Assembly: GCF_004795855.1 (NCBI RefSeq)
Contig: NZ_CP039252.1
Span: 1,178,001-1,242,000 of the forward strand
Length of the DNA: 64,000 nt
From: Hydrogenophaga sp. PAMC20947
GTDB taxonomy: Bacteria; Pseudomonadota; Gammaproteobacteria; Burkholderiales; Burkholderiaceae_C
Reading direction: 5' to 3'
Under the pieces are notes generated by a model. The model did no database searches and was not told where the DNA came from. It worked only from the letters and a program-made list of their open reading frames with translations. A program made the position numbers and the translations under genes. The stretch's first letter is position 1. Each line of letters opens with the position of its first letter. Of this stretch, positions 30,942 to 61,289 are shown piece after piece.

Positions 30942-32561
30942 ATGCAACACCAGAAAATTCTCATTCTTGATTTCGGCTCCCAGGTTACCCAGCTCATCGC
31001 CCGGCGTGTGCGTGAAGCCAATGTTTACTGCGAAGTACATCCTTGTGATGTGTCGAGTGAATGGGTGAAAGAGTTTGCCGCTGACGGTCAGCTTAAAGGG
31101 ATCATCCTGTCGGGCAGCCACGCCAGTACCTACGAAGACCAGGACTTGCGTGCGCCGCAGGCGGTATGGGATCTGGGGACGCCAGTACTCGGTATCTGCT
31201 ACGGCATGTTTGCCATGACGGTGCAAATGGGTGGGCAGGTTGAGGCGTCCTCGCACCGCGAGTTTGGCTACGCGGAGGTGCGAGCTCGTGGCCACACGGC
31301 CTTGCTCAAAGACATCGCAGACTTCCACACCCCGGAAGGCCACGGCATGCTCAAGGTCTGGATGAGCCATGGCGACAAGGTCACCGAGCTGCCACCAGGC
31401 TTCAAGCTCATGGCGTCTACGCCCAGCTGCCCCATCGCGGGCATGGCCGACGAAGCCCGCGGGTATTACGCGGTTCAGTTCCACCCCGAAGTGACCCACA
31501 CGGTGCAGGGCAAGGCCATGCTGGAGCGCTTCGTGCTGGATATCTGCAAGACCAATCCCGATTGGATCATGCGCGACCATATCGCTGAAGCGGTGGCCTT
31601 GATCAAGGAACAAGTGGGTGACGAAGAGGTGATCCTGGGACTGTCTGGGGGGGTGGACTCTTCGGTGGCTGCGGCGCTGATCCACCGTGCCATTGGCGAT
31701 CAGCTGACCTGCGTGTTTGTGGACCATGGTCTGCTCCGCCTGAACGAAGGCGACATGGTGATGGACATGTTTGTCGGCAAGTTGCATGCGAAGGTGATTC
31801 GCGTGGACGCGGCCGACCAGTTCCTCGGCCATCTGGTGGGTGTGAGTGATCCTGAGGCGAAACGCAAGATCATTGGTCGCGAATTTGTCGAGGTGTTCAA
31901 GGCCGAAGCCGCCAAACTGATCTCAAGTGGTGCATCAACAAACGGCGCCAAGTGGTTGGCACAAGGCACTATTTACCCCGATGTGATCGAGTCTGGCGGA
32001 GCCAAGAGCAAGAAGGCCGTGGTCATCAAGAGCCACCACAACGTGGGCGGCCTGCCAGAACAGCTGGGGCTGAAGCTGCTGGAGCCTCTGCGCGATTTGT
32101 TCAAGGACGAAGTTCGGGAGCTGGGTGTGGCGTTGGGTCTGCCCCACGACATGGTGTACCGCCACCCGTTTCCCGGGCCAGGATTGGGTGTGCGCATTCT
32201 GGGTGAGGTGAAGAAAGAATATGCGGATCTGCTGCGCCAGGCCGATGCCATCTTCATCGAAGAGTTGCGTTCCACCATCGACCACAATTCTGGCAAGAGC
32301 TGGTACGACCTCACCAGCCAGGCATTCACCGTGTTCTTGCCCGTAAAGAGCGTGGGTGTAATGGGTGATGGTCGGACCTATGACTACGTGGTGGCGTTGC
32401 GTGCGGTGCAAACCAGCGACTTCATGACGGCTGACTGGGCCGAGCTTCCCTACCCGTTGCTCAAGAAAGTGTCAGGTCGCATCATCAACGAAGTGCGCGG
32501 TATCAACCGAGTGACCTACGACGTATCAAGCAAGCCACCTGCCACCATCGAGTGGGAATGA
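30942..32561 (+). CDS. guaA: GMP synthase (glutamine-hydrolysing) GuaA
   Basis: Aminates XMP to GMP; 539 residues. The glutamine amidotransferase domain comes first ([20 protein letters not shown], nucleophile Cys in [16 protein letters not shown]), then the ATP-pyrophosphatase domain with the P-loop GLSGGVDSS and C-terminal dimer domain ending PATIEWE. Start at ATG 30942. The last codons double as an attachment site: the bases at 32544-32559 recur at 61274-61289, so the final residues may be supplied by the integrated element while the protein stays intact. Confidence 0.97.
32544..32559 (+). other. attL core of the guaA-linked genomic island
   Basis: ACCATCGAGTGGGAAT at the 3' end of guaA matches ACAATAGAGTGGGAAT at 61274-61289 at 14 of 16 positions, in the same orientation and the same reading frame (TIEWE-stop). 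The integrase gene lies just inside. Confidence 0.7.
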
Positions 32562-32676
32562 GTCAAGATGGTTCCAAGGTGTTTCCCGGCATCCCAAGAA
32601 AACCCGATTTCGCTGTAGGGACAAGGACTTAGCGTCTCACGGCGTCCCATCGAATCCAAGGACGTCCAAGGCGTCC

Positions 32677-32753
32677 TGACGGTTGACCTGACGGTATCCG
32701 GGCACCTAAGCTGGCAGGCCTGCAGTGATACCGTCAGAACCCATGACGGTATC
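32677..32753 (+). promoter_or_regulatory. Left-end integrase arm-type sites (TGACGGTATC iterons)
   Basis: TGACGGTATC occurs at 32689-32698 and 32744-32753, inverted at 32727-32736, with a partial TGACGGTT at 32677. The copies at 32727 and 32744 form a perfect inverted repeat with a 7-base spacer just ahead of the integrase start. They may bind integrase or repress its promoter; the matching copies at the right end favour arm sites. Confidence 0.6.
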
Positions 32754-32787
32754 GCGGTCCTGCGACAAGGAATGGATCGGAGATGTC

Positions 32788-34194
32788 ATGGAAACCTCGA
32801 TGGAACGGGCGCGGATTGGGTTGCCGAACGCGAGAGCGCGTCTCGGATTGACGGAAGCCAAGCTGCGAGAACTACAACCTGGCGAGCGGGCATACAAGGT
32901 CAGCGACGGAGGCAACGGTCTCTATGTCGTCGTCTCGCCCAGCGGCAGCAGGTCGTTCCGCTACGACTACCGGCTAAGCGGCCGCCGCGAGACGCTGACC
33001 ATTGGTCGCCACGAGCCGGTTGCGCGTCACGCCCAGCGATCTCACCTCGCCTACGGCATGGACGTGACGCTGGAGGAGGCGCGTCTGCTGCTGGCTCGGG
33101 CACGTGTCGATGTCAGTTCTGGGCGGTCGCCGGCCCGAGCCAGAGTCGAGCAGCGCAGCGAAGTAGCCGACGCCATGAGCTTCGGGCGGTGGGCGACGCG
33201 GTATTTCGAGTTCAAGTCCGACGCCAAGAGCGGTGCCGAGCGACTGGCCGAAAGCACGCTGTCATTGCGGCGTTCGATCTACAACCGCATCCTGGCTGGC
33301 CCGTTCGGGAAGCTGAACCTCGATGAAATCAAGCCGGTCGCGTTGGGTGAGTTGCTTGATCGCGTCAAGACAGATCGAGGCCCAGGTCCGGCCGTGCACG
33401 CCAGGGAACTGGTGTTGCAGGTCTACCGGTTCGCCAATGGCAAGGGCGTCGATATTGCCAATCCGGCTGAGGCGCTCGCGCGGAAGGCCTACGCGACGTT
33501 TGTCCCGCGCGAGCGCAACCTGAGCCGCCATGAAATCAAGACCTTGATCGACGGACTGGAAATGACTGGCACCGCGCCGACACTGCGCCTGGCTGTGAGG
33601 TTCTTGCTGCTGACGGGTGTTCGCAAAGGCGAATTCATCGGGGCTACCTGGGCGGAAGTGGACTGGGAGCGGGCACAGTGGCGGATCCCTGCCGAGAGGA
33701 TGAAGGCAGGCAAGCCGCAAACGGTGTATCTGGCAGAGCAGGCCCTGGACATCCTGACAACGCTTCGAACCTGCTTCCCATCGAGCAAATTTGTCCATCC
33801 AAGCCGCTATGACTCCGCCGAGCCGATCAGCCAGGCCACCCTGAACCGGACGATCGCTGCTTCGGTGACCCGGATCAACCAAGACCGAACATCTGGTCAG
33901 GATTCATTTCTGCCGGTTTCCGTCCACGACCTGCGCCGAACGTTCTCGTCACGGCTCAACGACGCGCTCTTCCCGGAGGCCTTGGTCGAAGCCTGCCTGG
34001 CCCACCAGAAAAAGGATCATGTTGCTGCAGCCTACAACCATGCTCGATTGTCGGGGCCTCGGCGGGTCCTCATGCAAGTATGGGCGGACATGCTGGACTG
34101 TTGGATGCGCGGCGAAACCGCGAGGGAGGTCATCGTCTCTGGTAAGGCGAAAATCGATGCGGCGGCGCACGACGCAGAAGGCATGAACTTGTAG
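32788..34194 (+). CDS. int: Tyrosine-type site-specific integrase (P4 type, DUF4102 N-domain)
   Basis: 468 residues from ATG 32788. The N-terminal DUF4102-like domain contains LRELQPGERAYKVSDGGNGL, then VSPSGSRSFRYDYRLSGR. A core-binding domain spans about 125-225. The catalytic residues are all present: Arg 279 (TGVRKGE), His 380 and Arg 383 (HDLRRTF), His 406 (LAHQ) and Tyr 416 (AAYNHA). ATG 32788 has GGAG five bases upstream; longer in-frame starts (32725 GTG, 32743 ATG) would cross the inverted repeat at 32727-32753. It would recombine the guaA end with the island's att site. Confidence 0.9.
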   Translation: METSMERARIGLPNARARLGLTEAKLRELQPGERAYKVSDGGNGLYVVVSPSGSRSFRYDYRLSGRRETLTIGRHEPVARHAQRSHLAYGMDVTLEEARLLLARARVDVSSGRSPARARVEQRSEVADAMSFGRWATRYFEFKSDAKSGAERLAESTLSLRRSIYNRILAGPFGKLNLDEIKPVALGELLDRVKTDRGPGPAVHARELVLQVYRFANGKGVDIANPAEALARKAYATFVPRERNLSRHEIKTLIDGLEMTGTAPTLRLAVRFLLLTGVRKGEFIGATWAEVDWERAQWRIPAERMKAGKPQTVYLAEQALDILTTLRTCFPSSKFVHPSRYDSAEPISQATLNRTIAASVTRINQDRTSGQDSFLPVSVHDLRRTFSSRLNDALFPEALVEACLAHQKKDHVAAAYNHARLSGPRRVLMQVWADMLDCWMRGETAREVIVSGKAKIDAAAHDAEGMNL

Positions 34195-35728
34195 GCCAAA
34201 GCAACACCCTGTGTAGCGCCTCGGGGAGTTTCTGTTGTTCGGTGCGTGGTTCTGGACCGTTCAAGCAAAAAGAGATGATGGCCACGCTTGCTGGCGCGAT
34301 GTATGGCGGGATTGCGCGAGGGTTCGGTGCCCTGGGTGCCGATGCTCAGTACGGCGAACGATGTCCGTGGACCGGCCAAATTTAACCGATAAAACAAATT
34401 GTTTCTGTTTGGATAAACAGAAAGAAAGACTCAAGGCTTGCTGAATACCGAATCGATCATGCTGTAACCGTGGATCGAGGAAGGCGCATCTGGTTGAACG
34501 CAGTTTTTGAGAATTTTGATCTCGGTTTGGGAAAGCCCACCTACTACGCAAGGCACCAATGTGTTGCCGCCGATACCGAATTTCCCCCGGACTTTCGGCA
34601 TAAACCTGTCCAAGTTTTCCGCCGCACCCCCCTAACAGATGTGGTCAAGAGGTCACAAGGACCCCCGAAATTGGCGTTCATCTCGCAGCAAGCCTTCTGC
34701 CCCGCAGGCTCCAAGCGCTGCACTGAGCTTCTGGCGCTTCACCCTCCGCTGGCCTCATCCATCACTCGAACTGCAGACCGCTGTTATGGCTTCACGCCAA
34801 GTCCGACCGCTGTCCTTGGAATTTGCCAATTTTGCTGACTTTTTGAAATGGAATGAAAGATTGTGAAAGGAAATGAAAGGGCTTTTCATTCCAAACTAGG
34901 AGACCCATTTCCTTAGCCTGTCCTCTTCACTGGAGCCCCCATGCAGTGTGCTCATGTTCCGTCAGTCGGCCGAATCGCTCCAGTTGGCATACCGTGTGGG
35001 GCCCGTGAGAGGGACCAGATGGGCTGCAGGCACAGGACTGCGGTTGCGGACGTCGCACATGGCACCTGTCTCCTTTGCCGATCTGGACGATATTCATCTC
35101 TTTCCAAAGACAGCACCAGACACAGAGGATCCCTAGGCCATTTGATGCTGCAAGCTTCAACGGGGTGGCGAACCTTGTGCACTCTGAGGTGTTTAGCAGT
35201 TGGGGAAATTGAAGCCTAGCTAAAGCAAAATTCGCGGTTCGGAAATTTTGTCATTGTATTAATACCAAAAAACTGACTTTTAAAACCATCTTGACGGCAA
35301 TTTATTTGATTTTTGTGTGGTTCTACTGCGTCAATCAAACGGAATAATTTCACAGGACGAAGTGACGAAATGTTAGGAATTTTGGAAGAATTTATTGGCT
35401 TCAATCAAGTTGCAAATAACCAAATAGATTCGCCAAATGCCTAAAATTGTTCCCCCTTTAATCTTGAATATATGTCATGGAATAGAAAAATGTAGATGGA
35501 AATCTTCATCTGCTTAACAAGGGCAGTCGGGCATCACTTTCGTGGAGTTGGCGGTGATCGGTTTGATCATCGCTGCCATTGGAAATTGGAGAATGTGTGC
35601 AGAGCAACGCCGATTTCACCGAAGCCAAAGATATCCCGAGATTTCAATTTTTGTTGATTTTTGTCGTATAGAACCGCTCGGCTTAGAGTGGATTTTTTTG
35701 TTTTCGAGTGAGCGTTGAGGCTGGATAG
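34195..35728. other. Intergenic accessory stretch, partly AT-rich, with gene debris
   Basis: About 1.5 kb with no intact gene. A minus-strand frame 34431-34613 (60 residues, containing KFGIGGNTLVPCVVGGLSQ) reads like protein but I cannot name it and it has no context. From about 35220 to 35720 the sequence is distinctly AT-rich compared with its surroundings. A pilin-like fragment lies at 35518-35600. The promoter of the TPS operon presumably lies in the last 100 bases, but no clear elements were found. Confidence 0.5.
35518..35600 (+). pseudogene. Fragment of a type IV prepilin N-terminus
   Basis: Frame from 35518 reads QGQSGITFVELAVIGLIIAA, the classic prepilin cleavage motif (Gly, then a hydrophobic helix with Glu at position 5 of the mature protein). 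A stop codon lies directly upstream, there is no start in this frame, and the hydrophobic helix is shorter than usual. It appears to be debris of a pilin gene. Confidence 0.55.
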
Positions 35729-37456
35729 ATGAACGTCAAAAACAAGTCGATTTTCCGTGTGGACCTTCGGGCCCGATTTCTCCTGATCGCAATAGGCAGT
35801 TTTGCCTTATCGGCCTTCGCTCAAGGGGTACCCAGTGCCGTTCCACCCCAGGACTTGCTGAGGCAGGAGCAGGACCGGTTGCGCCTTGAGCAGCAACGAA
35901 CCCAGCCTGCCGTTCGACCTTCGGGCGTCGACCTCAAGGAAGTGCTGCCAGAGGTCGTGGCGTTGCCTGAGAGCCCTTGCAAAGACATACAAACCGTAAC
36001 CATTGCGGGGGCGGAATTGATGTCAGACCAAGAGAGATCGTCGCTGGCTGGTGGATATGTTGGCAAGTGCCTGGGATCCGTCGAAATCCAGCAGCTCATG
36101 GGTGACATCACGCTGTTTTACGTGACGCGTGGGTTCGTCACCACCCGTGCCTATCTTCCTGCCCAGGATCTGCGCACCGGCCAGCTCCAGGTGCTGGTGC
36201 AAGAAGGGCGGATTGAGCGCATCGACATGAGCGGAGAGGACAGTGATCGCGTTCACTGGGGCATGGCTTTTCCAGGGAAGTCGGGAGACCTGCTGAACAT
36301 TCGCGATCTTGAGCAGGCGATTGATCAACTCAATTCGGCCAGGGGCAATGCCGTCACCATGCAATTGTTGCCCGGCAGCAAGCCCGGCTTGACCGTGGTT
36401 GAGTTGACGAATCGGGCGACCACCCCCGTTGAACTCAATCTCAGCACCGACAACATGGGCAGCGAGTCCACCGGTCGCCACAACGCGAGCACCACATTGA
36501 CGACTGGGGGGCTGCTGGGTCTGAATGAATCTGTTTCCTTGACCTGGATCACCGCCGTGCCCAGGAAACGCAGTGCGTTTTCGGAGAGTCTCGGTGCCCA
36601 ACTCAGCATTCCGTATGGCTACAACACCTTTGGCCTGAGATTCTCTCAGTCTCAATTCAGCATCGGTGCCGACATTCCCTACCGCGAAACGCCGTTCTAC
36701 ATCACAGGAAAATCCGAGTCCACCGAGGTGACCTTTGATCGACTTTTCTACCGTGACCAGTCCAGCAAGCATGCGGTCACGGCCAGTTTTGCGGACGGGG
36801 ACAGCCTCAGCTACGTTGACGGGGAACTGGTCAAAGTGGCCAGTCAAAAATCGAAAACCCTGAGCCTCGGGGTGCAAAGTTCGATGGTGGTGGGAGGGGG
36901 CCTGTTGACCGCAGCCCCTCGGTTGGTGATTGGCCAGCGCAACCACTACGCACTGCCCGAGGAGCTGTTGTACGCCGCGCCCGATGCGAACTACCAGAAG
37001 CTGGCCCTCACGCTGAACTATGGCAAAGGCCTCAAATGGGCTGGCGAAAACACCAGCTGGAACACTTTTCTTCAGGGTCAGTACGCCGAAAAATCACTTT
37101 ATTCGAGCGAGCGCATCAGCATTGGTGGCCTGGGTTCGGTGCGGGGATTCACCGACACCACGCTGGCGGGTGACTCGGGCTTTTATTGGCGCAATGAGTT
37201 GGCCTTGCGCCAGGGTGCCGATGTGATGGGACGAGCGGTCCAGTGGAAGTGGTACGCCGGTTACGACATCGGCCATGTGACCAGCCACGACGAAGAAGAG
37301 CCCGATGGAACCATGACCGGATGGGTCTTGGGCCTGAACACCCAAGTGGGGCCCACATCGCTTGATTTGTCTTGGACGCGCGCGCATCTGCGCCCCACCG
37401 GCATGCCCATTGACCCGAACGGACAGTTCTGGTTTCGCCTCTCTGCTCAATTTTGA
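35729..37456 (+). CDS. Two-partner secretion outer-membrane transporter TpsB (ShlB/FhaC/HecB family)
   Basis: 575-residue outer-membrane beta-barrel that exports the adjacent TpsA. A signal peptide ends near SAFA-QGVP. The mature N-terminus has a Gln/Arg-rich helix (PPQDLLRQEQDRLRLEQQR), then POTRA domains (about 85-240, including TVTIAGAELMSDQE and VTRGFVTTRAYLPAQDL) and a C-terminal barrel. The conserved SVRGF motif of Omp85-type transporters is at about residue 470, and the chain ends in Phe (LSAQF) as expected for barrel insertion. It starts 35 codons after a stop-rich AT-rich zone and precedes tpsA by 18 bases, so the pair is co-transcribed. Confidence 0.9.
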   Translation: MNVKNKSIFRVDLRARFLLIAIGSFALSAFAQGVPSAVPPQDLLRQEQDRLRLEQQRTQPAVRPSGVDLKEVLPEVVALPESPCKDIQTVTIAGAELMSDQERSSLAGGYVGKCLGSVEIQQLMGDITLFYVTRGFVTTRAYLPAQDLRTGQLQVLVQEGRIERIDMSGEDSDRVHWGMAFPGKSGDLLNIRDLEQAIDQLNSARGNAVTMQLLPGSKPGLTVVELTNRATTPVELNLSTDNMGSESTGRHNASTTLTTGGLLGLNESVSLTWITAVPRKRSAFSESLGAQLSIPYGYNTFGLRFSQSQFSIGADIPYRETPFYITGKSESTEVTFDRLFYRDQSSKHAVTASFADGDSLSYVDGELVKVASQKSKTLSLGVQSSMVVGGGLLTAAPRLVIGQRNHYALPEELLYAAPDANYQKLALTLNYGKGLKWAGENTSWNTFLQGQYAEKSLYSSERISIGGLGSVRGFTDTTLAGDSGFYWRNELALRQGADVMGRAVQWKWYAGYDIGHVTSHDEEEPDGTMTGWVLGLNTQVGPTSLDLSWTRAHLRPTGMPIDPNGQFWFRLSAQF

Positions 37457-37474: not shown

Positions 37475-40400
37475 ATGAACCACGTCTACCGCGTTGTTAG
37501 GAACAAAAAAACTGGCCTGTGGATGGTCGCCTCGGAAATTGCGCGCTCGGCCGCGGGTTCAACGGGTGCGGTTGTGCTGGCCAGCGGCATGCTTGCCTTT
37601 CCGGTGGTTGCGCTCGCCCAGTCGGCCAGCGCGGGCATGGCCAGCGGCCAGGCGGGCAGGGTGTATGTGGCCCCCAACGGGAGGACGACGGTGGTGGACA
37701 TCAACAATGCCTCCGGCGCAGGGCTGTCGCACAACATGTTCACCCAGTTCGACGTCAACAGCGGTGGCCTGGTGCTCAACAACGCGAACACCCAAGGCAC
37801 GGCGATCACTGTCAACACGCAACTGGCGGGTGAGTTGCTCGTCAACATGCAGTTGGACAAGCAGGCCACCGTCATCCTCAACGAAGTGGTGGGCGGTGGC
37901 CAGTCTGGCTTGAATGGCTTCACCGAGGTTGCTGGCCAAAGGGCCAAGGTAATCATTGCCAACCCCAACGGCATCTCGGTCAATGGCGCGGGTTTCATCA
38001 ATACTTCTGCCGTTACTTTGACCACCGGTTCGCCGCAAGTCGCTGGAGGCCGTTTGACGAGCCTTTCGGTCTCCGGCGGCGATATCGCGGTGACGGGCGC
38101 TGGCCTGAATGCCAAAGGGGTCGACGTGCTCAATTTGTTGAGCCGCAACCTCACCCTCGGCGGCAACATCAATGCCGAAGACTTGGTGGTCTTGACCGGG
38201 GCACAGAAGCACAGCATCGGGTCGGACGGGTTCTCCGTTTCCGGCTCGTCGGGGTCCAGTGCCAGTGGCGCTACCTATGCCATTGATGCATCCTCCCTCG
38301 GCGGCATGTACGCGGACACCATTCGCCTGGTTTCGACCGACCAGGGCGCAGGTGTGCGCATTTTGAGCAACGTGGCTGCATCGGGCGGCGAATTTTCTCT
38401 GACGGCCGCGGGGAAAATCGAGATTCGCGGCAAGATTTCAGCCAACAAAGACCTGCTGGTCCGCACCAGTTCCCTGGCCACTGGGCCCAACCCATCCGAT
38501 GCAGCGCTTTTGTTTGGGAATGGCTCACTGAGCAGCAAGGGCGATTTGGAGATCGTGGTGGGTGGCAAGGCGATTTTGGAAGGGGGCGAACTGTTTGCCT
38601 CGAAGCAGATCAACATCCAGGCCGGTGAGCTGCAAGACAGCAGTTCTCAGAGCACCGCAGAAGGCAACAACAACCGCACCGCCAACGGCGGCGTGAATGT
38701 CAATGTGACGGGCGAAGCGGCGATCAGCGAAACCATCTGGACCGCCGGTCAAGATTTGACCCTCGCGGTCGGGCAGCTCAACGCTAGCGCGGCCAATACG
38801 CAACTGAATGCAAACCAAAGCGTCAATCTCACTGCCACCACCGGCGGCATGGATTTGGGCCAGGCCAAGGTGGTGGCGTACACCAACCTCAACCTCAATG
38901 CGTCCACATCGATTGACGTGGGGGCAGGGGCTACCCAGGGCATTCAAGCCAAAACCGGGTCGATGGCGATCCAAACCGGTACCACGCTGTCCAACGCGGG
39001 GGAAATTCAGGCCGCCAGCATGTCCAACGTGAATGTGGGTTCGGGGTTGACCAACTCCGGCTCCATGGTGTTGTCGACCGCTTCCACCGCTCAAGACATT
39101 GTTCATGTGGGGGCCAACCTTGTGAACCAAACGACCGCGGTCTTGTTGAGCGCTGGCGACGTCCAATACACCGTCGCCGGCAGCACCAGCAACGCTGGCA
39201 CCGTGCAAAGCCAAGGCAGCACCACGGTGCAAACCAATGGGCTGACGCAGACCAGCGATGGGCAGATCATTGGCGGTGTGCAAGACGGCAAAAACGTGAC
39301 GGTGACTTCCACCGGCAACATCAACAACGCCGGCTTGGTTCAAGGCGATGGCAACGTCAGCATCACGGCATCGAATCTGACGCAGAGCGGCAACGTGATC
39401 GCGGGTGCGGCGCGCGTGGGTGACCTGACCGTGAGCACGGGCAGCGGCGATGTGAGCAACACCGGGGTGATGCAGGCCTCGGGTGGGGTGAACCTCGCGG
39501 CCAGGAATCTGACGCAGACGGGCAGCGCCCAACTGTTGGCCGAAGGGCAGGCGGATCACGCCAGCCAAATCACCCTGAGCGGCAATTTGAGCAACAACGC
39601 CAGCACGGTTCAGGCCGGTGGGGCCCTCGCGTTGAGTGCGCAGGCGTTTGAACAAATAGGGGCCAGCGCTCGATTTTTGGGCGGCATGAGCAACGGCGGG
39701 GCCACGCAACTGAACCTGAGCGGCGGCTTGGACAACCAAGGCATTGTTCAGGGCGGCGGCGATGTGGACATCACCGCCGAAGGCCTGCTTCAACAAGCGG
39801 GAAGCCGCTTGATCGCGGGTGCCACGGCCACGGGAGACCTGAGCATCGACGCTGGTGCGCAGGATCTCGACAACCGCGGGCAAATACAAGCCTCGGGCGC
39901 GCTGAATGTGAGTGCCCGTGACTACACGCAAAGCGCCGCGGCCACCACCCTGGTTGACGACGCCAACAACAGCGGCAGCACGATCGACCTGGCAGGTGTT
40001 CTGAACAACGGCAACCTGCTTCAAACCGGTGGCCGCCTTGCTATCAACGCCGCTTCGCTGAACAACAGCGCCACGGCCAGCAAAATCATTGCGGGCAAAG
40101 AACATGTCAGCGACCTGGACGTTCAGCTCACTGGCGCCATGACCAACGCAGGCCTGCTCCAGTCGGGAGGCGACACCGCCATACAAGCCAGCGCTTTTTC
40201 CCAAGGCACCAGCGCCAAGGTGTTGGCGGGCGCGACCACCGCCGGTGGCGCCATAGGGGGCATTGAGCTCGACGTGGGAACCGGCAACATCCAGAACGAT
40301 GGCCTGTTGCAATCCAGCGCGGGCATGGACATCGCCGGCCACAACTTCAGCAACGCGGGCAAAGTGGTGGCCGCGACCTCGGGGGCGGGCAGCAGCCAGG

Positions 40401-43400
40401 TGCAACTCACGGGCACACTGACCAACAACCTGCTGCAGGCGGGCGCCGCACTCAACATCAGTGCCGCGGCCTTGAGCCAAGGCACCACCGGCAAGATCTT
40501 GGGCAGCATGCAAGACAGCCAAGGCACAACCACCATTGCGCTCAATGGCTCGGGCACCTATGTCAACTCTGGCACCCTGTTCTCTGGCGGCGATCTGGCG
40601 CTCAGCGCCGCCGCCATCACCAATGCCAACGGCGCCCTTGTGGGCAGCAACGGCGACACGGCGATCACCACCACCACGGGCAGCCTGACCAACCACGGCG
40701 ATTTGGTATCCGTGGGCGACATGGCGCTGAATGCCGCCACCAGCATCAGCAACTTGGCGACCACCCACACGGTTCAAGGGCGCTACCTTGGCATGCAAGG
40801 TTCGACAGCGCGGTACGAACTCAAGCAGGTTCTTGACAGCAAGGGCACCATCAATGCGATGGGCAGTTTGAGCATGACGGCGCAAAACACCGTGCTCAAC
40901 GAGAGCGAGATCAGGGCCGGCGGCATGGGCGCGGGCAACATCACCATCACCGCCAACACCATCCGAAACGAAGTCAAAGGCGGCGACTCGCGGGCTTGGA
41001 CTTCCGTCGACACGGTCACCAGCGACTTGCCTGATGCCGAGACCACGGCGGAGAACAGGGGGCTGGATTATGTTATCGATGACGAAGACAACAGCTACAA
41101 CAACGGCGACAAGCACAAAATCACGACCTATACCGAGACTTGGCATAGAGATCAGTATTTCACAGCCGGTTTGGCGGCCTTGAAGCCGCTGATCAGCGGC
41201 TCAGGCACGGTGCGCTTGCAAAATTTCACGAACGGTAAGAACTTGGGCGGGGTCATTGAAGGGGCCAACGTCCTCATCAGCACCACCAAGCCGGGGGCCA
41301 CATTCACCAACGATGCCCTCGCCGTTCAGCGGCAAAATTACACCCGCGAGACGGAGTATGAGATCCATTACGCGGCGTTGGGGCCTGCGAAATGGAGCGA
41401 AGGCTGGACAACAAACACCACCAGCAGTAGCTTGGTGGGTGTGAACACTTCGTACGGCGCCAGCATCGGCGCGTCGATTCGCGCGCCGGGCGCTGTGTCG
41501 ATCACGGGTGTTGCCATGACCAATGCGGGCTCTGTGTTGCCTTCGTCGGGCTCCACGCCGGGCGGAGGGTCGGCCGGGTCGGCACCTGGGACGGTCAACG
41601 CCAGCGGCACCGACGCGGGCGCCTCTGGCATCGCGACCTTCGTTGGCGTGGCTTCGTTGCCGCGGTTCGACCCCCTGAATTGGCCGGGGCTCAACCTCAG
41701 CTTGCCCACGAGCCAGAACGGCTACTTCGTGACCAGCAAAAACCCGTCGGCGCGGTACCTGGTTGAGACCAACCCCTTGTTCACCAACAATGCTTCGTTG
41801 GGCTCTGATTATTTGGCCGACAAGCTGGGCATCGACCCAGAGCTGAGCATGAAGCGCCTGGGCGACAACAACTACGAGGCATACCTGGTTCAGCAACAGC
41901 TGATGGCCCAAACCGGCTCTTCGCTTTTGGCAGGCCTCTCGGGCGCAGGAGGGGTTTACCAACAACTGATGGAAAACGCGTTTTCCACCGGTGGCGAACT
42001 GGGCTTGACCTATGGCGTTGCGCCCACGCTTGAACAGCTGGCCAAGCTCACAGAAAGCATTGTCTGGATGGTGGCCGTGGAAGTGGGTGGTCAAACCGTG
42101 CTCGCGCCGGTTGTGTTCCTGGCGCCCAAAACACTGGCCTCGCTCAAAGGGGGTGCCGAAATCGAAGCCGATCAGGTAACGCTCAATGTGACCGAGCTGA
42201 TGAACAAGGGGGGCAGTATTGCCGGGGCCACCAGCGTTTCGGTGAACGCCAAAGGCGATATCACCAACCTCTCGGGCAGCGTCATGGGCGGCAGCGTGGT
42301 ATTGGCCTCTGTCGAGGGTGGCATCACCAATGCCACTTTCGTGGCCACGGCGGGCGATGAAGGCAACATGACCACCACCTTGGGCAAAACCGCCCAGATC
42401 GTGGCGACCGATTCCCTCAAACTTGACGCCAAGGGCGACATCCAAAACCTGGGGGCGCAGATGGGTGCGGGGGGCGATGCGTCCCTCAATGCCGGTGGTG
42501 CCATCACTTTTGACACCATCGAAGACAAGTCGTCGGTGTCGTCGGTTTCGTCTCAGAGTGGCTTTCTGTCGGGTGGCGTCACCAGAAACACCACGAGCAC
42601 GGTCAACCAAGTGAAATCGGGCCTGGACGTGGGCGGCAGCCTCGCGATGAACGCGGGCAAAGACATCACCTTGGCGGGCACGGACGCCGACGTGGGTGGC
42701 GATGCGCAAATAGCGGCGGGTGGCGATGTGAACATCGTGGCGCGAGAAAACACGGTGACCTCCAACACCACTTCGACCATGTCCGGGCTCGGCGTGGGTG
42801 GGGGGGTGTACGGCACCAGTGAAACCAAGACCGACAGCTTCTCTAGCCGCAATGTGGGGAGCTCATTGAACATTGGCGGCAACGCCGATGTGAAGGCCGG
42901 GGGCGACATGACCGTTCAAGGCTCCAAGCTCAATGTGGGCGGCGATGCGGGTCTGGATGTCACCAACTTGAATGTCTTGGCAGGGAAAGACCTGGACACC
43001 ACCACCACCACCACCAAAACCACCAGCTTTTTGCAGGTGGAGAACGTGGGCAATGGGCCGTCGAGCAGCAGTTCCTCGCAATCGGATTCGTCCAAAGGCA
43101 GCGAAACCAGTGGGCAGGCGGGCGGCGCGGCGGCCTCAACCTCGGCCAGCACACAGGCCAAAGCCAGCGCCGGCGCGGGCGCCAGCTATTCCGACTCGGC
43201 GGGTGTGACCTTGGCCAAAACCACCACCACGACCGATGCTTCGCTGTCGCAGCGCAGCGTGGGCTCGGAGTTGAATTTGGGTGGCAACGTCACCATCAAG
43301 GCCAAGGACACGGTCACGCTGCAAGGCTCGGAATTGAACGCAGGGGGCGATCTGGACCTCAGCGCCAAGAACGTGCAACTGTTGGCGGCGCAAAACATTG

Positions 43401-47017: not shown

Positions 47018-47638
47018 CTACTTTCTCTGAACCCGATGGTCAGGTGTTGTTCTGCGGGGTAGTAGGCGAACGGTGGTGGGTGAAGACATCGAACATATTT
47101 CGGACACGTGGCCTCGAAACGGGCCAGCACCCCGCCGTATGCAAGCATTGTCGGCGGGCTTCGATGGGGTGGCAGGAGTGACTACCGCGCTGTGCGCCAG
47201 ACCGCTTTGCCTGTCCACGCCAATGTGAGGCCTCATTCCGAAATACCACTGCTGGCCCTTGCGCGTCTGGTGCATCTCGGGGTCGCGGGCCCTGTCTGCA
47301 TTCTTGGTGGAACTGGGGGCTCCAATGATGGCGGCGTCCACTATGGTGCCGGTATTGACCTTGAAGTACCGGTCCTGCAATTGTTTAACCACCATGGCAA
47401 ACAACGCTTCACCGAACTTGTTGTCAGTGAGCAGTTTGCGAAACTTCGCGATGGTGGTGGAGTCTGGAACCGGTTCGCGCCGGAGGTCTACGCCGACGAA
47501 GCGGCGCAGGCTGGCACTGTCGTACAAGGCTTCTTCACAGGCCATATCGGCCAGGTTAAACCAGTGCTGAATGACATGAATGCGAAACATGCACTCCAGC
47601 CCAAATGGACTGCACTCTGTTCCTGAGGTAAACATCAA
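47018..47638 (-). pseudogene. Truncated IS5-family transposase
   Basis: The minus-strand frame carries the N-terminal and central part of an IS5-type transposase: FRIHVIQHWFNLADMACEEA, LYDSASLRRFVGVDLRREPV, PDSTTIAKFRKLL, VDAAIIGAPSSTKNADRARD and PEMHQTRKGQQWYFGMRPHI, then GVDRQSGLAHS. After VVTPA the similarity stops, and the C-terminal catalytic part (including the last acidic residue) is missing. No pair of terminal inverted repeats was identified. It lies directly between the tpsA terminator and the histidine kinase and is an inactive relic. Confidence 0.8.
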
Positions 47639-49833: not shown

Positions 49834-50573
49834 ATTTGAACAAGCCCACCATTGCCATCGTCGAAGACGACATTGATCAGCGAAACACCCTTCAAGAGTT
49901 CCTGACGGACGCGGGCTACGACGTGTGGTGTGCGGGCAGTGCCGAGGCTTTCTACAAAGGGTTCACCGCGCATCCGGCCGATGTGGTCATTCTCGACCTG
50001 GGCTTGCCTGGTGAAGACGGCCTGAGCGTGGCGTCGTTGCTCAAGGCCAAACCCGAGGTGGGCGTGATCATCCTCAGTGCGCGGGACTCGTTGGACGACC
50101 GGTTGGCCGGGATGAGAGCAGGCGCCGACCGCTACCTCGTCAAGCCCGTCAACCTGCTGGAACTGTCCGCCAACATCGAGGCAACGGCCATTCGTCTGGA
50201 GCCCAAGTCCGGGCACCAAGCAAGCGTGCCCCAACTGCTGGTCGCCGAGGCGCCCTGGGTACTTGCGGTCAAGGACTGGGCGCTTGTCTCGCCCATGGGC
50301 AAGTCACTGCAACTCACCACCCTCGAGTTCATGTTCCTTCAGCAACTCATGCGCTCAAGTGGGCAACCCCAGGCCAAACGCGATCTGAGCACCCTCCTGT
50401 TCGGGCCCCGTGCCCAAAACGGTGCGGAGCGCCTCAACCTGTTGGTGGCCCGGCTGCGCAAGAAGTCGGCGCAAGCCTTTAACGAGACCTTGCCGGTCAA
50501 AACCTTGCACCAGATTGGGTACGCCTTCACGGCCGAGACGCACATCACGCAGGCGCCGCAAGCCCTGCACTGA
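49830..50573 (+). CDS. OmpR-type two-component response regulator
   Basis: 247 residues. The receiver domain (about 1-125) has the acidic pair at 13-14 (EDD), phosphorylation site Asp 56 (VVILDLGLPGEDG) and Lys 105 (YLVKPV). A C-terminal winged-helix DNA-binding domain (about 140-235) has LTTLEFMFLQQLM, RLNLLVARLRKK and TLHQIGYAFTAE. It is translationally coupled to the kinase upstream. The nearest large target in the same island is the tpsB-tpsA operon, so regulation of the adhesin is a reasonable guess without direct evidence. Confidence 0.9.
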   Translation: MNLNKPTIAIVEDDIDQRNTLQEFLTDAGYDVWCAGSAEAFYKGFTAHPADVVILDLGLPGEDGLSVASLLKAKPEVGVIILSARDSLDDRLAGMRAGADRYLVKPVNLLELSANIEATAIRLEPKSGHQASVPQLLVAEAPWVLAVKDWALVSPMGKSLQLTTLEFMFLQQLMRSSGQPQAKRDLSTLLFGPRAQNGAERLNLLVARLRKKSAQAFNETLPVKTLHQIGYAFTAETHITQAPQALH

Positions 50574-50625: not shown

Positions 50626-51024
50626 TTAACCGCCAGCAAGATGCAGGCTGCAATACCTGCCGGAGCCCAAAAAGTAAGCCGCCCCATGACGCCTAACCGT
50701 TCGCGGTGAGCGGCTCGCTGCCGCCTGCCGTAGCGAGTGCGCTCGACTGATGGGATGGACTCCCCCGTTTGTTTGCGCGACATTCGCGCTCTGGTCTTCA
50801 TGGGCGTGGGGCACCAGCCACCGCGTCAGCGGTTGAGTGACAGCTTTCCCTTTTGACCACGGTCCGCTCATGGCCGAAAGCGCTGGTTCTGACATCTGAG
50901 CGCGTGACAGCTTTGCTCGGGGCACGCAGGGGCGCACGATAGCGAGTTTGCCTGTGGCATCCACACCATGAACGTCAAAGACGTTCTTGGCGAGATCGAT
51001 TCCGATAGTGACAATGGCAGACAT
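50626..51024 (-). pseudogene. Degenerate IS110-family transposase remnant
   Basis: The frame opens MSAIVTIGIDLAKNVFDVHG, then VDATGKLAIV, the N-terminal DEDD-fold motif of IS110-type transposases. Similarity then fades: the remaining frame continues to about 50626 and a second frame (around 50700-50800, KTRARMSRKQTGES) carries weakly similar sequence, indicating frameshift and decay. Most of a normal transposase of about 340 residues is missing. It sits next to integron-type sites; the IS1111 branch of this family is known to insert into attC sites. Confidence 0.65.
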
Positions 51025-51153
51025 GGACTTCCCCTTCCACAAAAACGAGTGAGTTGATGAAAAGTTCGACCTTCCCATCGTGGCACTCAGTTGCCGTTAA
51101 CCGCAAGCCTCAGGGTGCGCGGCTCGCTCGGGACGGGGAAGTCTCTTTCATTC

Positions 51154-51200: not shown

Positions 51201-51650
51201 ATGCAGCCGAGCGTTCGCTACGATGACGAATACGCGACGTGCGTCAGTACGTTCGTCTGGCTGCGCGTGATGAGCGAAACGCTCGAGCCCGACTCAGTGA
51301 CGCGGAGGCTGCATGTCCAGCCAACACGAACGCAATTGCGCGGCGCTTTGCCCGCACCAAACTCCAAGTACCCCTACAAGTACTCCGGGTGGTTTCTCGA
51401 GTCGGACGGCCAGGTCCAGAGTCGAGACGCTCGGCGTCACCTTGACTGGCTGCTGTCCCAGCTCACCGGGAAGGGCAAAGTATTCGCGGAGCTCATGGCC
51501 GAAGGTAACAAGGTGGATGTTTGCTGCAAGTGGGAGTCTGTGGGGCAGGGTGGTCCGCTTCTGAGCCCGCCGCAGCTGGAAGGCCTCGCCCAACTCGGCC
51601 TTGAGCTTTGGTTCGATGTCTACTTTGCGGGTCAAGACGGTGTCGTCTAA
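51201..51650 (+). CDS. DUF4279 domain protein, probable integron cassette gene
   Basis: 149-residue cytoplasmic protein of the DUF4279 type: FVWLRVMSETLEPDSVTRRL, HVQPTRTQLRG, YSGWFLESDGQVQSRD and DWLLSQLTGKGKVFAELMAE are characteristic. Function of the family is unknown; members are frequent in integron cassettes and accessory regions. The stop codon TAA lies within the RYYYAAC box of the attC site at 51645, and a GTTAGAC core lies nine bases before the start, so the gene fills a cassette closely. No promoter is evident. Confidence 0.75.
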   Translation: MQPSVRYDDEYATCVSTFVWLRVMSETLEPDSVTRRLHVQPTRTQLRGALPAPNSKYPYKYSGWFLESDGQVQSRDARRHLDWLLSQLTGKGKVFAELMAEGNKVDVCCKWESVGQGGPLLSPPQLEGLAQLGLELWFDVYFAGQDGVV

Positions 51651-51721: not shown

Positions 51722-52006
51722 AGTTTTTCTGACATGGCCCATATCACTTGTCCGGTATGCCGCACAGATCTAGAGGCAGAAGACGTCGACTTCTGCTGGA
51801 ACTGCGGAAGCCCCACCAACCTATCGCCGGTGGAAGTCACCCGAATGAAAGAGTCCATCGCTCAAGAAAAAGACAAAGTTTCTTCCGGCTCGGATCATGT
51901 GGCTTCTAGCGAAAGCCAAACACCGCTCACTTGGGCTGACGCACTGTGGGCTTCCCCCAGTTTCCCGGACGGTTTGCTTAGCCCATTAAGCCTTGCTCAA
52001 AGTTGA
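51719..52006 (+). CDS. Zinc-ribbon protein, second cassette gene, 3' end altered by IS3 insertion
   Basis: Short protein with a CPVC-(x)12-CWNC zinc-ribbon motif (ITCPVCRTDLEAEDVDFCWN) followed by a Ser/Glu/Lys-rich helix. The ATG at 51719 overlaps the attC core, as is common in cassettes; ATG 51734 is an alternative. From 51945 the reading frame runs into the left inverted repeat of the IS3 element and stops at 52006. Joining across the element (51944 to 53198) the original frame would end after about eight more residues (PPIHVDH-stop), so the insertion replaced only the tail. Confidence 0.6.
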   Translation: MSFSDMAHITCPVCRTDLEAEDVDFCWNCGSPTNLSPVEVTRMKESIAQEKDKVSSGSDHVASSESQTPLTWADALWASPSFPDGLLSPLSLAQS

Positions 52007-52841
52007 CTGGGCTGAGGAAGTCTAGCTTTGAGTGTTTACGCACCGGGTTGTAGAAGCGCTCGATGTAGTCGAACACGTCGGACCTGGCTTCTTCCCTTGT
52101 CCGGTAGACCTTGCGGCTGAGCCGTTCGGTCTTCATCGACGAGAAGAAGCTCTCCATCGCAGCGTTGTCCCAGCATTCACCTCGACGACTCATGCTGCAG
52201 GTGATGCCTTGTTCCTTGAGCAACCGCTGGAAGTCGTCGCTGGTGTACTGGCTGCCCTGGTCCGAGTGATGCATCAGCGAGCTGGGTTTGCCGCGCCGCC
52301 AAAGGGCCATCAACAAAGCGTCGCTCACCATCTTGGCCTGCATGGTGTCGCTCATCGACCACCCCACGATGCGGCGTGAGTACAGGTCCATCACCGCTGC
52401 CGCATACAGCCAGCCCTCAGCCGTCCAGATGTAGGTGAAGTCAGCCACCCACTTTTGGTTCGGACCACTGGCCTCGAAGTCGCGCTGCAGATGGTTGGGC
52501 GCGATATGGTTCTCAAGCCTGCTGCCCGTATCACCAGGTAGCCTGCGTCGCTTGTGGCGGGCTTGCAGCTTGGCCAGGTGCATCAGCCGGATGACCCGAT
52601 TCATCCCACAGGTCTCCCCCAGCGCTCGAAGGTCGTGCCAGACGCGTGGACTGCCGTAGGTTCGGTCGCTGAGTTCGAAGCTCTCTCGGATGAGGCGGGT
52701 GAGCCTGGCGTCGTCTTGGCTGCGCTGGCTCGGCGCTCTGTCCATCCATTCGTAGAAGCCGCTGTGGGAGACCGCCAGAACCCGACACATGGTGCGGGTG
52801 GGCCAGACACTACGATGCCGCGCGATGAAGCCGTACTTCAC
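51978..52841 (-). CDS. IS3-family transposase OrfB (DDE integrase domain)
   Basis: 287-residue catalytic part. The HTH_21-like N-terminus contains RVLAVSHSGFYEWMDR. The rve core has the three acidic residues: Asp in WVADFTYIW, Asp in MHHSDQGSQYTS and Glu in WDNAAMESFFSSMKTE. It ends with YIERFYNPVRKHSKLDFLSP. It overlaps orfA by four bases and is probably made as an OrfAB fusion by frameshifting at the A7 run in orfA. Confidence 0.93.
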   Translation of the reverse strand: MKYGFIARHRSVWPTRTMCRVLAVSHSGFYEWMDRAPSQRSQDDARLTRLIRESFELSDRTYGSPRVWHDLRALGETCGMNRVIRLMHLAKLQARHKRRRLPGDTGSRLENHIAPNHLQRDFEASGPNQKWVADFTYIWTAEGWLYAAAVMDLYSRRIVGWSMSDTMQAKMVSDALLMALWRRGKPSSLMHHSDQGSQYTSDDFQRLLKEQGITCSMSRRGECWDNAAMESFFSSMKTERLSRKVYRTREEARSDVFDYIERFYNPVRKHSKLDFLSPVNFEQGLMG

Positions 52842-53134
52842 TGCGGGTCCTTTGCAAAGTAGCCGAGCGCTTTTTTTAGGATGTCGCGCTCCGTGGTCAC
52901 GCGGCGTAGTTCGCGTTGCAGCCGCTCCACCTCAGTGGCGGCCTCACTGCGAAGCGGCCGGTTCGGCCTAAGGTCCAACACTCCGCCACGTTCCTGGGTG
53001 ACCCACCGCCTGAGCACGCTGGTCTGGATACCCAAGTCCCGCGCAATGTTCGTGACCGTGGCTCCTGGCTGCTTGCACAGCTTCACTGCCTCACGTTTGA
53101 ACTCGTCCGTGAAGCTCCTTCGGGTTCTTGTCAT
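52838..53134 (-). CDS. IS3-family transposase OrfA
   Basis: 98-residue helix-turn-helix protein (RRSFTDEFKREAVKLCKQPG, then IARDLGIQTSVLRRWV) with a C-terminal leucine-rich coiled coil (VERLQRELRRVTTERDILKK). The codons for ILKKALG contain seven consecutive A on the coding strand (52871-52877), a standard slippery site that lets ribosomes shift into orfB. Confidence 0.93.
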   Translation of the reverse strand: MTRTRRSFTDEFKREAVKLCKQPGATVTNIARDLGIQTSVLRRWVTQERGGVLDLRPNRPLRSEAATEVERLQRELRRVTTERDILKKALGYFAKDPQ

Positions 53135-53538: not shown

Positions 53539-54888
53539 TCAAGCCAACAGCAAGGCCGCAGGCGACTCCAGCAGTTGGCGCACCGCCTGAATGAAGCGCG
53601 CGGCGTCCTGCCCGTCCACGATGCGATGGTCGAACGACGAGGACAGATTCATCATCTTGCGCGCGACGAACTGGCCACCGATCACCATCGGCCGCTCCAC
53701 CATTCGGTTCACGCCGACGATGGCCACCTCCGGCGCGTTGATGATGGGCGTGGACACGATGCCGCCGAGCGCGCCAAGGCTGGTGAGCGTGATGGTCGAG
53801 CCGGTGAGTTCGTCCCGGGTCGCACGCCCGGAGCGTGTTAGTTCGGCCACCTGGACGATGGCGCGCGCGTTGGTCCACAGATCGCCATCCTGGGCATGGC
53901 GCAGCACTGGCACCATCAGGCCGGCGTCGGTCTGGGTCGCGATGCCCACGTGCACGGCGCTGTGCCGGGTGATGACGCCGATTTTGTCGTCAAACAGGGC
54001 GTTGACCTGGGGGAAATCTTCAATAGCCAGCACCATGGCACGGATCAGGAAAGGCAGCAGCGTCAGCTTGCCCCGGGAGTCCCCGAAGCGCATATTGAGT
54101 TGCGCGCGCAGCGATTCGAGTTCGGTGACATCGCATTCCTCGACATAGGCGAAATGAGGAATGCTGCGCTTGGATTCCTGCATCTTCAGCGCGATGCGTC
54201 GACGCAGCCCGATCACCTTGATGTCCTGCATGGTGTCTTCACCAGTGCGCGGCGTCGCCGCCGGCGCAGCGGCCGCGGGAACTTGCGGGCTATGTTGGGC
54301 AATATGCTCGTCCAGGTCAGCTTGCAGGATGCGGCCGCCGGCGCCGCTTGGTCGCACCTGGCTCAGGTCAACGCCCAGTTCCCAGGCGCGGCGGCGCAAT
54401 GCGGGCGACGCAATCGGCTTGTGGTTGGGAGTGGATGGGGCCGCAGGCTTCTCCGGAGCGACGGGTTGAGGGGCTGTGTCGGGCGGCGCTTCGGCCTGGA
54501 TCGGTGACGCTGTCTGGGCCGACTCCTTGGCAACTGCAGGTTCGAGTCCGGGTTTTTCGGTGATGCCGGAAGCACCTTTTCGAGTGGCCGGGACCGGGGC
54601 CAGGGCTTGGGCCGCAGGCGATGCATCGGCCGCGCCACCACCGTGCAGCGCGATGTCAATCAGCGTCGCACCCACCGCCAATACCTCGCCGACCTCACCG
54701 CCGAGCCGACTCACCCTGCCCGCCACAGGCGACGGTATCTCCACCGACGCCTTGTCGGTCATCACATCGGCCAGTATCTGGTCTTCTTTCACCATGTCGC
54801 CGACCTGCACATGCCAGGCCACCACCTCGACTTCGGTGATGCCTTCGCCCAGGTCGGGCATGCGAACGGTATGCACTCCCATGATCAT
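53539..54888 (-). CDS. bkdB: Branched-chain 2-oxoacid dehydrogenase E2 (dihydrolipoyl acyltransferase)
   Basis: 449-residue E2 core. The lipoyl domain (about 1-80) has the lipoylated Lys in DVMTDKASVEI. An Ala/Pro-rich hinge follows, then a peripheral-subunit-binding domain (SPALRRRAWELGVDLSQVRP) and the catalytic domain (about 215-449) with the active-site FDHRIVDGQDAARF. Start by ATGATC overlap with bkdA2; ATG 54882, with GGAGG seven bases upstream, is an alternative. The complex turns branched-chain 2-oxoacids into acyl-CoAs. The E3 (lpdV) gene usual after bkdB is absent. Confidence 0.88.
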   Translation of the reverse strand: MIMGVHTVRMPDLGEGITEVEVVAWHVQVGDMVKEDQILADVMTDKASVEIPSPVAGRVSRLGGEVGEVLAVGATLIDIALHGGGAADASPAAQALAPVPATRKGASGITEKPGLEPAVAKESAQTASPIQAEAPPDTAPQPVAPEKPAAPSTPNHKPIASPALRRRAWELGVDLSQVRPSGAGGRILQADLDEHIAQHSPQVPAAAAPAATPRTGEDTMQDIKVIGLRRRIALKMQESKRSIPHFAYVEECDVTELESLRAQLNMRFGDSRGKLTLLPFLIRAMVLAIEDFPQVNALFDDKIGVITRHSAVHVGIATQTDAGLMVPVLRHAQDGDLWTNARAIVQVAELTRSGRATRDELTGSTITLTSLGALGGIVSTPIINAPEVAIVGVNRMVERPMVIGGQFVARKMMNLSSSFDHRIVDGQDAARFIQAVRQLLESPAALLLA

Positions 54889-55895
54889 GCCTCCATCACG
54901 CGTTGCAGTGCCACCGCGACACGTGCCGGCCCGGGAAAGTAGGCCCATTCCTGCGCGTGCGGATACGGCGTGTCCCAACCGGTGACGCGTTCGATTGGCG
55001 CCTCCAGGTGGTAGAAACAATGCTCCTGCACCAGTGCGATCAATTCGGCGCCAAAGCCACTCGTCCGTGTGGCTTCGTGCACCACGACGCAGCGCCCGGT
55101 TTTTTTCACCGACGCAACGATGCTGTCCAGATCCAGCGGCCATATGCTGCGCAGATCGATGATCTCGGCGTCGATGCCGGTCTCAGTCACCGCCGCCTGC
55201 GAGACATACACCATGGTGCCGTAGGTCAGGATGGACAGGTCCGCGCCTTCACGAAACACGGTCGCCTTTTCCAAAGGCACGGTGTAATGGCCTTCTGGGA
55301 CGTCGGCCAGCGGGTGGTCTTTCCATGGGGTCACCGGTTTGTCGTGGTGGCCGTCGAACGGCCCGTTGTAGAGGCGCTTGGGCTCGAGAAAAATCACCGG
55401 ATCGTTGTTCTCTATGCAGCTGATTAGCAGACCCTTGGCGTCATATGGGTTGGACGGCATCACGGTGCGCAAGCCGCTGACATGGGTGAACAGCGCCTCA
55501 GGGCTCTGGCTGTGTGTTTGTCCGCCGTAGATGCCGCCGCCACAGGGCATGCGGATTGTCAACGGCGCGGTGAAGTCGCCGGCCGATCGGTAACGCAGGC
55601 GCGCAGCTTCCGAGACGATCTGATCGCAGGCCGGATAAAAATAGTCGGCGAACTGCACCTCGACGACTGGCCGCAACCCGTACGCCGCCATGCCGATGGC
55701 CGTGCCGACGATACCGCCTTCGGAAATCGGCGCATCGAATACGCGCGAGCTTCCGTACTTCTTCTGCAGGCCGTCGGTGCAGCGGAACACGCCGCCAAAA
55801 TACCCGACGTCCTGTCCATAGATCACTACGTTGTTGTCGCGTTCGAGCATGACATCCATCGCAGAACGCAGGGCCTGAATCATCGTCATCTGCAT
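54885..55895 (-). CDS. bkdA2: Branched-chain 2-oxoacid dehydrogenase E1 beta subunit
   Basis: 336 residues, very close to pseudomonad BkdA2 as I know it: MTMIQALRSAMDVMLERDNN, GQDVGYFGGVFRCTDGLQ, VQFADYFYPACDQIVSEAAR, GGGIYGGQTHSQSPEA, then IERVTGWDTPYPHAQEWAYF near the end. It pairs with BkdA1 to form the thiamine-diphosphate E1. It starts five bases after bkdA1 and overlaps bkdB by four, so the three genes form a tight operon. Confidence 0.93.
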   Translation of the reverse strand: MQMTMIQALRSAMDVMLERDNNVVIYGQDVGYFGGVFRCTDGLQKKYGSSRVFDAPISEGGIVGTAIGMAAYGLRPVVEVQFADYFYPACDQIVSEAARLRYRSAGDFTAPLTIRMPCGGGIYGGQTHSQSPEALFTHVSGLRTVMPSNPYDAKGLLISCIENNDPVIFLEPKRLYNGPFDGHHDKPVTPWKDHPLADVPEGHYTVPLEKATVFREGADLSILTYGTMVYVSQAAVTETGIDAEIIDLRSIWPLDLDSIVASVKKTGRCVVVHEATRTSGFGAELIALVQEHCFYHLEAPIERVTGWDTPYPHAQEWAYFPGPARVAVALQRVMEA

Positions 55896-55900: not shown

Positions 55901-60594
<4,694 letters not shown>

Positions 60595-61032
60595 CGCAAC
60601 GATCGCGTCTGAAACTCGGCGCCTTGCTGCCATGGGGACCGTGATGACGGTCGAGCTGGTGCTGTTGCTCAAGCAGGGCTCGTGGGTCAACTGAACGTCA
60701 CCCGCTTCTCAAGGCAATTTTCAATTTTCGGTTTGTTTGGCCTCGGTCGAGTGACCGGTCTGGGGGAGCGGATTCAACCGGTCGATTGACATCTGGTCCC
60801 GCGAACGACCGGTTGCGGCATTTGCGAACGTTCAGCCGTCGAATCCGAATGGCTAACGTCAGCCTTCACCTGAGCTTGGTCGCGCCCGTGTGAACTGCGG
60901 TTTCTGGCGGGGCTGAGTCGGATGGTTAACCAGCCGAAAGCGGTCGCTGGGTTTGGGGGCAGCCGCCGCTCAGTTCATTCCCCCTTGAAGTGCCGTGGAC
61001 GCCGCGGACGGTAGATGGGCACCGGAAGTCTC

Positions 61033-61096
61033 GATACCGTCACCGCAGTGCACAAATCCGTCATTGCGCCGACCGACGGGGCCGCCGATACCGTCA
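61033..61096 (-). promoter_or_regulatory. Right-end integrase arm-type sites (GATACCGTCA)
   Basis: GATACCGTCA occurs at 61033-61042 and 61087-61096, identical to the 10-mer at 32727-32736 and complementary to those at 32689 and 32744. The distance from the att core (about 180-240 bases) matches the left end (about 130-200 bases). Two copies so near the boundary are unlikely by chance. Confidence 0.6.
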
Positions 61097-61273
61097 AAGC
61101 GTCCAACTCGAGCCCCGATCGCGTGGCAAGTTCCAAATCTCGACACTTCATGGCCAGTAGCTATAAACTGGCGTTGCTTTGTGCAATCGCAGGCGACGGG
61201 AAGCAAGTCGGTATTGACCTCGTTATGGGCCGCAGAGCCACGGATTTCAGCGATGAGCGGCGACCGGCCACTG

Positions 61274-61289
61274 ACAATAGAGTGGGAAT
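61274..61289 (+). other. attR core of the guaA-linked island
   Basis: ACAATAGAGTGGGAAT followed by AG; 14 of 16 bases equal the guaA end at 32544-32559, and the encoded peptide (TIEWE then stop) is the same. It marks where the original guaA terminus was displaced by integration. Confidence 0.65.

Follow-up and report, generated by a model that had tools for sequence, protein, structure and literature searches.

Genomic islands that occupy the 3' end of guaA and share a GAGTGGGA core are already known (PMC9376610; PMC7775301). For one of them, GIsul2, integrase-driven excision and integration were shown experimentally (PMC9376610). ICERspD18B of Rheinheimera sp. D18 sits at the same site and combines a P4-type integrase with a type IV secretion system (T4SS), a relaxase, an alpA gene adjacent to int, and resistance genes; its transfer has been demonstrated (PMC7775301). 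The GMP-synthase-associated islands of Song et al. 2012 (cited in PMC7775301) also have this site, a P4 integrase and the GAGTGGGA core, and alpA near the integrase is, as cited there, frequent but not obligatory. Here we describe an island of this kind in Hydrogenophaga sp. PAMC20947; no title or abstract start among the literature matches describes it. The window analysed comprises 64,000 nucleotides (positions 1178001-1242000 of the 4.85-Mb single-contig genome); coordinates are window positions unless called genome positions. With a probability of roughly 0.93, 32560-61289 is a genomic island that entered the 3' end of guaA through the action of a P4-type tyrosine integrase which it encodes itself and which is specific for guaA. 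This unit of 28,730 bp is well delimited.

The island shows two features of guaA islands: each of its ends carries a repeat that includes GAGTGGGA, and a P4-type integrase lies next to guaA. It thus shares site and core with GIsul2, site and integrase type with ICERspD18B, and all three features with the islands of Song et al. (PMC9376610; PMC7775301). Its attR matches the ICERspD18B direct repeat ACAATNGAGTGGGAATNNTT at the first 16 positions and not at the last two (TT). Unlike ICERspD18B (PMC7775301), it yielded no T4SS, relaxase, int-adjacent alpA or resistance gene among the island proteins scanned for Pfam domains (16 proteins; small open reading frames, ORFs, in part), and the lack of a recognizable alpA also sets it apart from GIsul2 and from many GMP-synthase-associated islands. 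Plasmid-borne relatives of the integrase are distant: at most 51% identity among the 25 matches listed, and under 60% for all 847. Those that we take to be of the GIsul2 type are about 42% identical to the window integrase. The guaA end of the island is laid out as follows.

30942..32561, + strand: guaA (GMP synthase; ORF with a match in most genomes of the genus), the host gene with the 3' end as attachment (att) site
32547..32559, + strand: attL, ATCGAGTGGGAAT, with the identical 10-bp core GAGTGGGAAT at 32550-32559
32560..32724, + strand: conserved left end of the element, directly after guaA in sister islands (alignment of 16 left ends, window included; blastn to 32559-34226)
32689..32753: three left GATACCGTCA sites, at 32689 (-), 32727 (+) and 32744 (-); probable arm-type sites
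32725..34194, + strand: P4-type tyrosine integrase, probable start 32788 (Arm-DNA-bind_3 and Phage_integrase, Pfam)

The opposite end has these features.

61033..61096, + strand: pair of GATACCGTCA sites near the right end (61033, 257 bp from the end of att, and 61087, 203 bp from it), which probably serve as arm-type sites
61277..61289, + strand: attR, ATAGAGTGGGAAT, which gives TIEWE-stop together with its flanks

A sequence-only reading of this DNA had proposed a 28.7-kb island with an intact integrase behind guaA, had placed a second copy of the guaA 3' end at 61274-61289 and had called that end a known integration site. Each of these proposals holds. Segment 61274-61289 (ACAATAGAGTGGGAAT) agrees with 32544-32559 (ACCATCGAGTGGGAAT) at 14 of 16 bases, and the site is that of the guaA islands with a GAGTGGGA core in PMC9376610 and PMC7775301. 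The integrase has both expected domains, its arm domain matches that of a CP4-like integrase (3jtz), and motifs for R300, K327, H401, R404, H427 and Y437 could be picked by eye. We take these to be the catalytic residues. Both borders are supported by islands that share either the integrase or the right terminus, as detailed below.

The last base of guaA is 32561, and the right copy of the repeat likewise encodes T-I-E-W-E-stop (ACA ATA GAG TGG GAA TAG). We propose that the integrase recombines GAGTGGGAAT in the last guaA codons with the copy in a circular form of the element. Since the element copy brings its own TIEWE-stop tail, the C-terminus of guaA would be kept with the element in or out; here the reading frame is observed and the recombination deduced. 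The exact 10-mer GAGTGGGAAT occurs three times in 4.85 Mb, and two of these copies are the island ends. The third, at genome position 3917572, lies in a coding sequence, which by eye we take to be that of a topoisomerase. In another genome of the genus (G072, locus L066), guaA ends in GCGACAATAGAGTGGGAG, which resembles the element-side att tail and is possibly the trace of an earlier insertion.

The left end places the island in a family. A scan of named genomes for relatives of the integrase gave 16 loci in Hydrogenophaga, Ramlibacter, Piscinibacter, Rubrivivax and uncultured bacteria, mostly Burkholderiales. Of these, 15 were examined and L112 (31% identity) was omitted; L110 and L111 are the two ends of one circular record, so that the 15 loci represent 14 distinct insertions. 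In 15/15 the integrase (76-92% identity) lies directly 3' of guaA and is preceded by the common left end. Four sister islands were compared further, G020 (complete on one contig) and G070, G061 and G056 (incomplete, limited by their contigs). Over the left 1640 bp the window is 87-89% identical to the four, which are 90-98% identical to one another. When the whole window was compared by blastn (E 1e-10) with the DNA behind guaA from these 15 loci and from 41 loci of the genus, no match lay right of 34226; the sole match left of guaA was a short one (6122-6213, in L079). The 41 loci derive from a survey of 60 genomes of the genus, of which 54, the window genome included, have a guaA match at E <= 1e-100. 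DNA 3' of guaA (about 3-18 kb each) was fetched from 41 of the 53 others, most of the remaining 12 loci being at contig ends or having a partial or low-identity match.

Decisive support for the borders comes from the related right terminus of sister islands, not from the repeat itself. G020, G070, G061, G069 and G065 all carry TTGACAAT[A/C]GAGTGGGA[A/G]TGA, and tadA or paiB follows it at a distance of up to about 0.8 kb. The window tail at 61289 differs from this sister tail in a single base (CTGACAAT) and in its stop codon, TAG. The right GATACCGTCA sites lie 258 and 205 bp from the att end in G020, G070 and G069 compared with 257 and 203 bp in the window. Only 12 copies of GATACCGTCA exist in the genome and five of them are at the two island ends, where they are probably arm-type binding sites of the integrase. 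By blastn, the window right end scores 34.6-43.7 bits against G020, G070, G061 and G069; of 200 segments taken at random from the window and scored against the end of G020, none exceeds 24.7 bits.

Several observations weigh against this reading. In a search for the 13-base att pattern (<= 2 mismatches), the window holds two matches, the reference site counted, compared with 0.98 expected in shuffled sequences, and 26 of 100 shuffles attain two. Because this count is near chance, the att repeat taken alone is weak evidence. The right 270 bp of the window are only 51-56% identical to the G020, G070, G061 and G069 ends, which are 75-92% identical to one another. G061 has only the 205-bp GATACCGTCA site exact and G065 has neither. 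The right ends of G070 and G061 lie on contigs other than those of their integrases, so that the link between the two is inferred, and G065 has the right end but no match to a window-type integrase behind guaA. Finally, paiB, the ancestral neighbour of guaA, starts in the window genome only at 68262 (numbering continued past the window), 7 kb right of attR. A wider search with the window right end found, besides itself, only 32- and 34-base matches in 399 genomes of the family (up to two candidates scored in each) and no match among plasmids. The 399-genome search is too insensitive, because G061, which has a related right end, gave no match in it. The weak shuffle result would suit an account in which the repeats are coincidental and genes accumulated one at a time behind guaA, as would the variable guaA-paiB gap in many relatives that lack a match to the window integrase. 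We give this account almost no credence: the two-ended anatomy is common to other islands, and the shared right terminus already contradicts it.

In G020 (L054/L177-L180), a Hydrogenophaga metagenome-assembled contig, both element ends lie on one contig, 76.8 kb apart, and tadA follows about 0.8 kb after attR. This element resembles the window island in its integrase (92% identity), left end, attachment site, arm-site spacing and related right terminus. Unlike the window island, it carries alpA and encodes T4SS proteins, a subunit of a type I restriction system and a Rieske_3/molybdopterin enzyme, the last of which we read as arsenite-oxidase-like. From this gene content, G020 looks like an integrative and conjugative element (ICE). 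No window cargo protein matched there at E 1e-8, and when 12 window island proteins were searched in the four sister islands (three of them incomplete), the integrase alone matched all four; the window kinase and regulator had a weak match in one, G070. Long interior blocks are common to G020, G061 and G056. G069 (L060) has only a 1.5-kb remnant after guaA, consisting of about 295 bp of left-end-like sequence and then attR directly before paiB; it has the appearance of a guaA element of this family that has collapsed. We assign the window island to a Burkholderiales family of guaA elements that have integrase and ends in common and differ in cargo, with one sister ICE-like. Together, the single-contig ICE-like element, the 1.5-kb remnant and the alpA-less cargo island offer a way to test what is lost when such an element becomes fixed.

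The right border was examined against the ancestral arrangement of the site. The sequence-only reading had predicted that in relatives guaA would be followed directly by the HD-GYP gene, which lies just beyond attR.

61442..62842, + strand: gene for the HD-GYP response regulator that follows the island, part of a cyclic di-GMP (c-di-GMP) cluster

This prediction failed, as paiB and/or tadA are found behind guaA instead. One or both lie within the fetched stretch at 25 of the 41 genus loci, and in 9/41 less than 1 kb separates guaA from paiB or tadA, an empty-site arrangement; the HD-GYP gene has no match in these 41 stretches. We therefore rejected HD-GYP as the ancestral neighbour of guaA. 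The failed prediction leaves the 61.29-kb border intact despite the different right neighbour, because attR is recognized from the element side. For the family of guaA islands to which this one belongs, in Hydrogenophaga and other Burkholderiales related to it, exact borders, probable arm sites and a reference order (guaA-paiB-tadA) are now available.

Between attR and paiB (61290-68261; right part in L113:1-4261) are genes for HD-GYP, PAS-kinase, EAL-REC, HDOD and receiver proteins, with no integrase seen and no recognizable att at the right end. A match at E 1e-100 to the HD-GYP protein is found in 12 of the 60 genus genomes, the window genome included. Of the 11 other loci, nine were fetched at 20 kb each, and none of these nine has a guaA or paiB match; HD-GYP, kinase, EAL-REC and HDOD occur together in seven of these nine and only the first two in the other two. 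No match running from the c-di-GMP regulator cluster into paiB was found in 66 other genus genomes (up to four candidates scored per genome; many drafts). This 7-kb segment is non-ancestral at guaA and probably an older, separate insertion. The usual position of paiB-tadA next to guaA, and the presence of the HD-GYP cluster at the guaA site in no other genus genome examined, could also be explained by one 35.7-kb insertion from 32562 to about 68261, up to paiB, with the 61.28-kb repeat as a relic inside it or as a tandem att. That we consider improbable, since the element-type right terminus stops at 61289 and no att-like sequence occurs by paiB (<= 2 mismatches to a 17-base pattern, plus strand) or right of 64001 (<= 1 mismatch to a 13-base pattern, both strands). 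In G023 (L068), moreover, an att-like copy (one mismatch) lies 1.8 kb behind guaA and is likewise followed by other DNA before paiB; because of this parallel, a stacking of insertions at guaA is a plausible history. We favour two insertions: the 28.7-kb island probably integrated between guaA and the earlier 7-kb insertion, shifting the latter towards paiB.

With respect to mobility, no T4SS or relaxase domain was found in the 16 island proteins scanned (small ORFs in part). An ICE would have genes for both; an integrative and mobilizable element would have its own relaxase and/or an oriT. In G020, G070 and G061, three of the five sister right ends, AlpA is encoded about 450-600 bp inside attR. 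The single PF05930 (AlpA) match of the window genome, at genome position 1171312, does not lie in the island, and low-stringency tblastn for alpA in the island gave a best local E of 0.086. The absence of alpA is not unique, as it is lacking at the G069 and G065 right ends too, where there is no intact integrase of this kind, and the point counts somewhat against our interpretation. Because attL, attR, the probable arm sites and the integrase are kept but no alpA or conjugation genes were found, the island has most likely been stranded: it would derive from a guaA ICE and could at best be moved if a related element assists. The retained att and arm sites, and an integrase dN/dS (ratio of non-synonymous to synonymous substitution rates) of 0.07-0.11 against five relatives, would also fit an island that still excises itself through an unrecognized directionality factor; that dN/dS is a property of the lineage and need not apply to the recent history of the window copy. 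Such self-excision is possible but on balance doubtful given the missing AlpA-family gene, the transposase fragment and IS3-type pair in the island and the lack of conjugation or relaxase domains in the 16 island proteins scanned (small ORFs in part). A more speculative and quite unlikely possibility is a chimeric shell, with an integrase end from the local Hydrogenophaga guaA-ICE lineage (87-89%), a right terminus from a diverged lineage (51-56%) and metabolic and adhesin cargo between them. It would survive as a parasite that resident guaA ICEs, by supplying AlpA and a conjugation apparatus, can move in trans. Genome positions 1171312-1173366, some 5 kb to the left of the window, encode another integrase (31% identity) with the AlpA match nearby, possibly a second island upstream of guaA.

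The cargo consists of the following genes (IS, insertion sequence; TPS, two-partner secretion).

35729..37456, + strand: TPS transporter of the ShlB/FhaC type (ShlB, POTRA_2, POTRA_3)
37475..46885, + strand: 3136-aa TPS exoprotein, filamentous-haemagglutinin-like adhesin (ESPR, TPS, Fil_haemagg_2 with eight stretches)
47018..47638, - strand: transposase fragment, IS5-type by reading (DUF772, partial DDE_Tnp_1)
47776..49833, + strand: dCache histidine kinase (Pfam)
49830..50573, + strand: response regulator with Trans_reg_C output domain (Pfam)
50626..51078, - strand: ORF without a Pfam family, its start resembling an IS110-type transposase by eye only
51201..51650, + strand: DUF4279 protein (Pfam)
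51978..53134, - strand: IS3-type transposase pair, orfA/orfB (rve, HTH_21, HTH_Tnp_1)
53539..54882, - strand: branched-chain 2-oxoacid dehydrogenase (bkd) E2
54885..55895, - strand: branched-chain 2-oxoacid dehydrogenase E1 beta
55901..57139, - strand: branched-chain 2-oxoacid dehydrogenase E1 alpha
57835..60594, + strand: aconitase of the AcnA type, the second in this genome (55% identity to the one at genome position 246349)

This cargo looks accessory, as first supposed: beyond the integrase none of the 12 proteins searched matched all four sisters, and other matches in the genus are rare or of low identity. The island aconitase does not exceed 59% identity with any match from the other genomes of the genus that were searched, further ShlB-type matches across the 60 reach at most 34%, and bkd E1 alpha occurs in 2/60 genus and 26/399 order genomes, the window genome included in both. 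In G064, the other genus genome with bkd E1 alpha, a frame read as dihydrolipoyl dehydrogenase (E3) follows E2. The window operon appears to lack E3, none being seen after E2 in the three frames of that strand; the IS3-type pair begins about 400 bp beyond E2. No linked aconitase-bkd unit was found elsewhere: an aconitase match (E 1e-5) was present at none of 27 bkd loci in 26 other genomes. As 26 of the 27 have flanks of about 1.5 kb or less, a link over a longer distance is possible. PADLOC, run on seven proteins (six of the island plus HD-GYP; integrase and TPS proteins not included), returned low-scoring partial hits only. The 1.5-kb stretch 34200-35728, which separates the integrase from the TPS genes, is low in G+C (about 51% over 34001-36000), and one ORF in it has no Pfam family.

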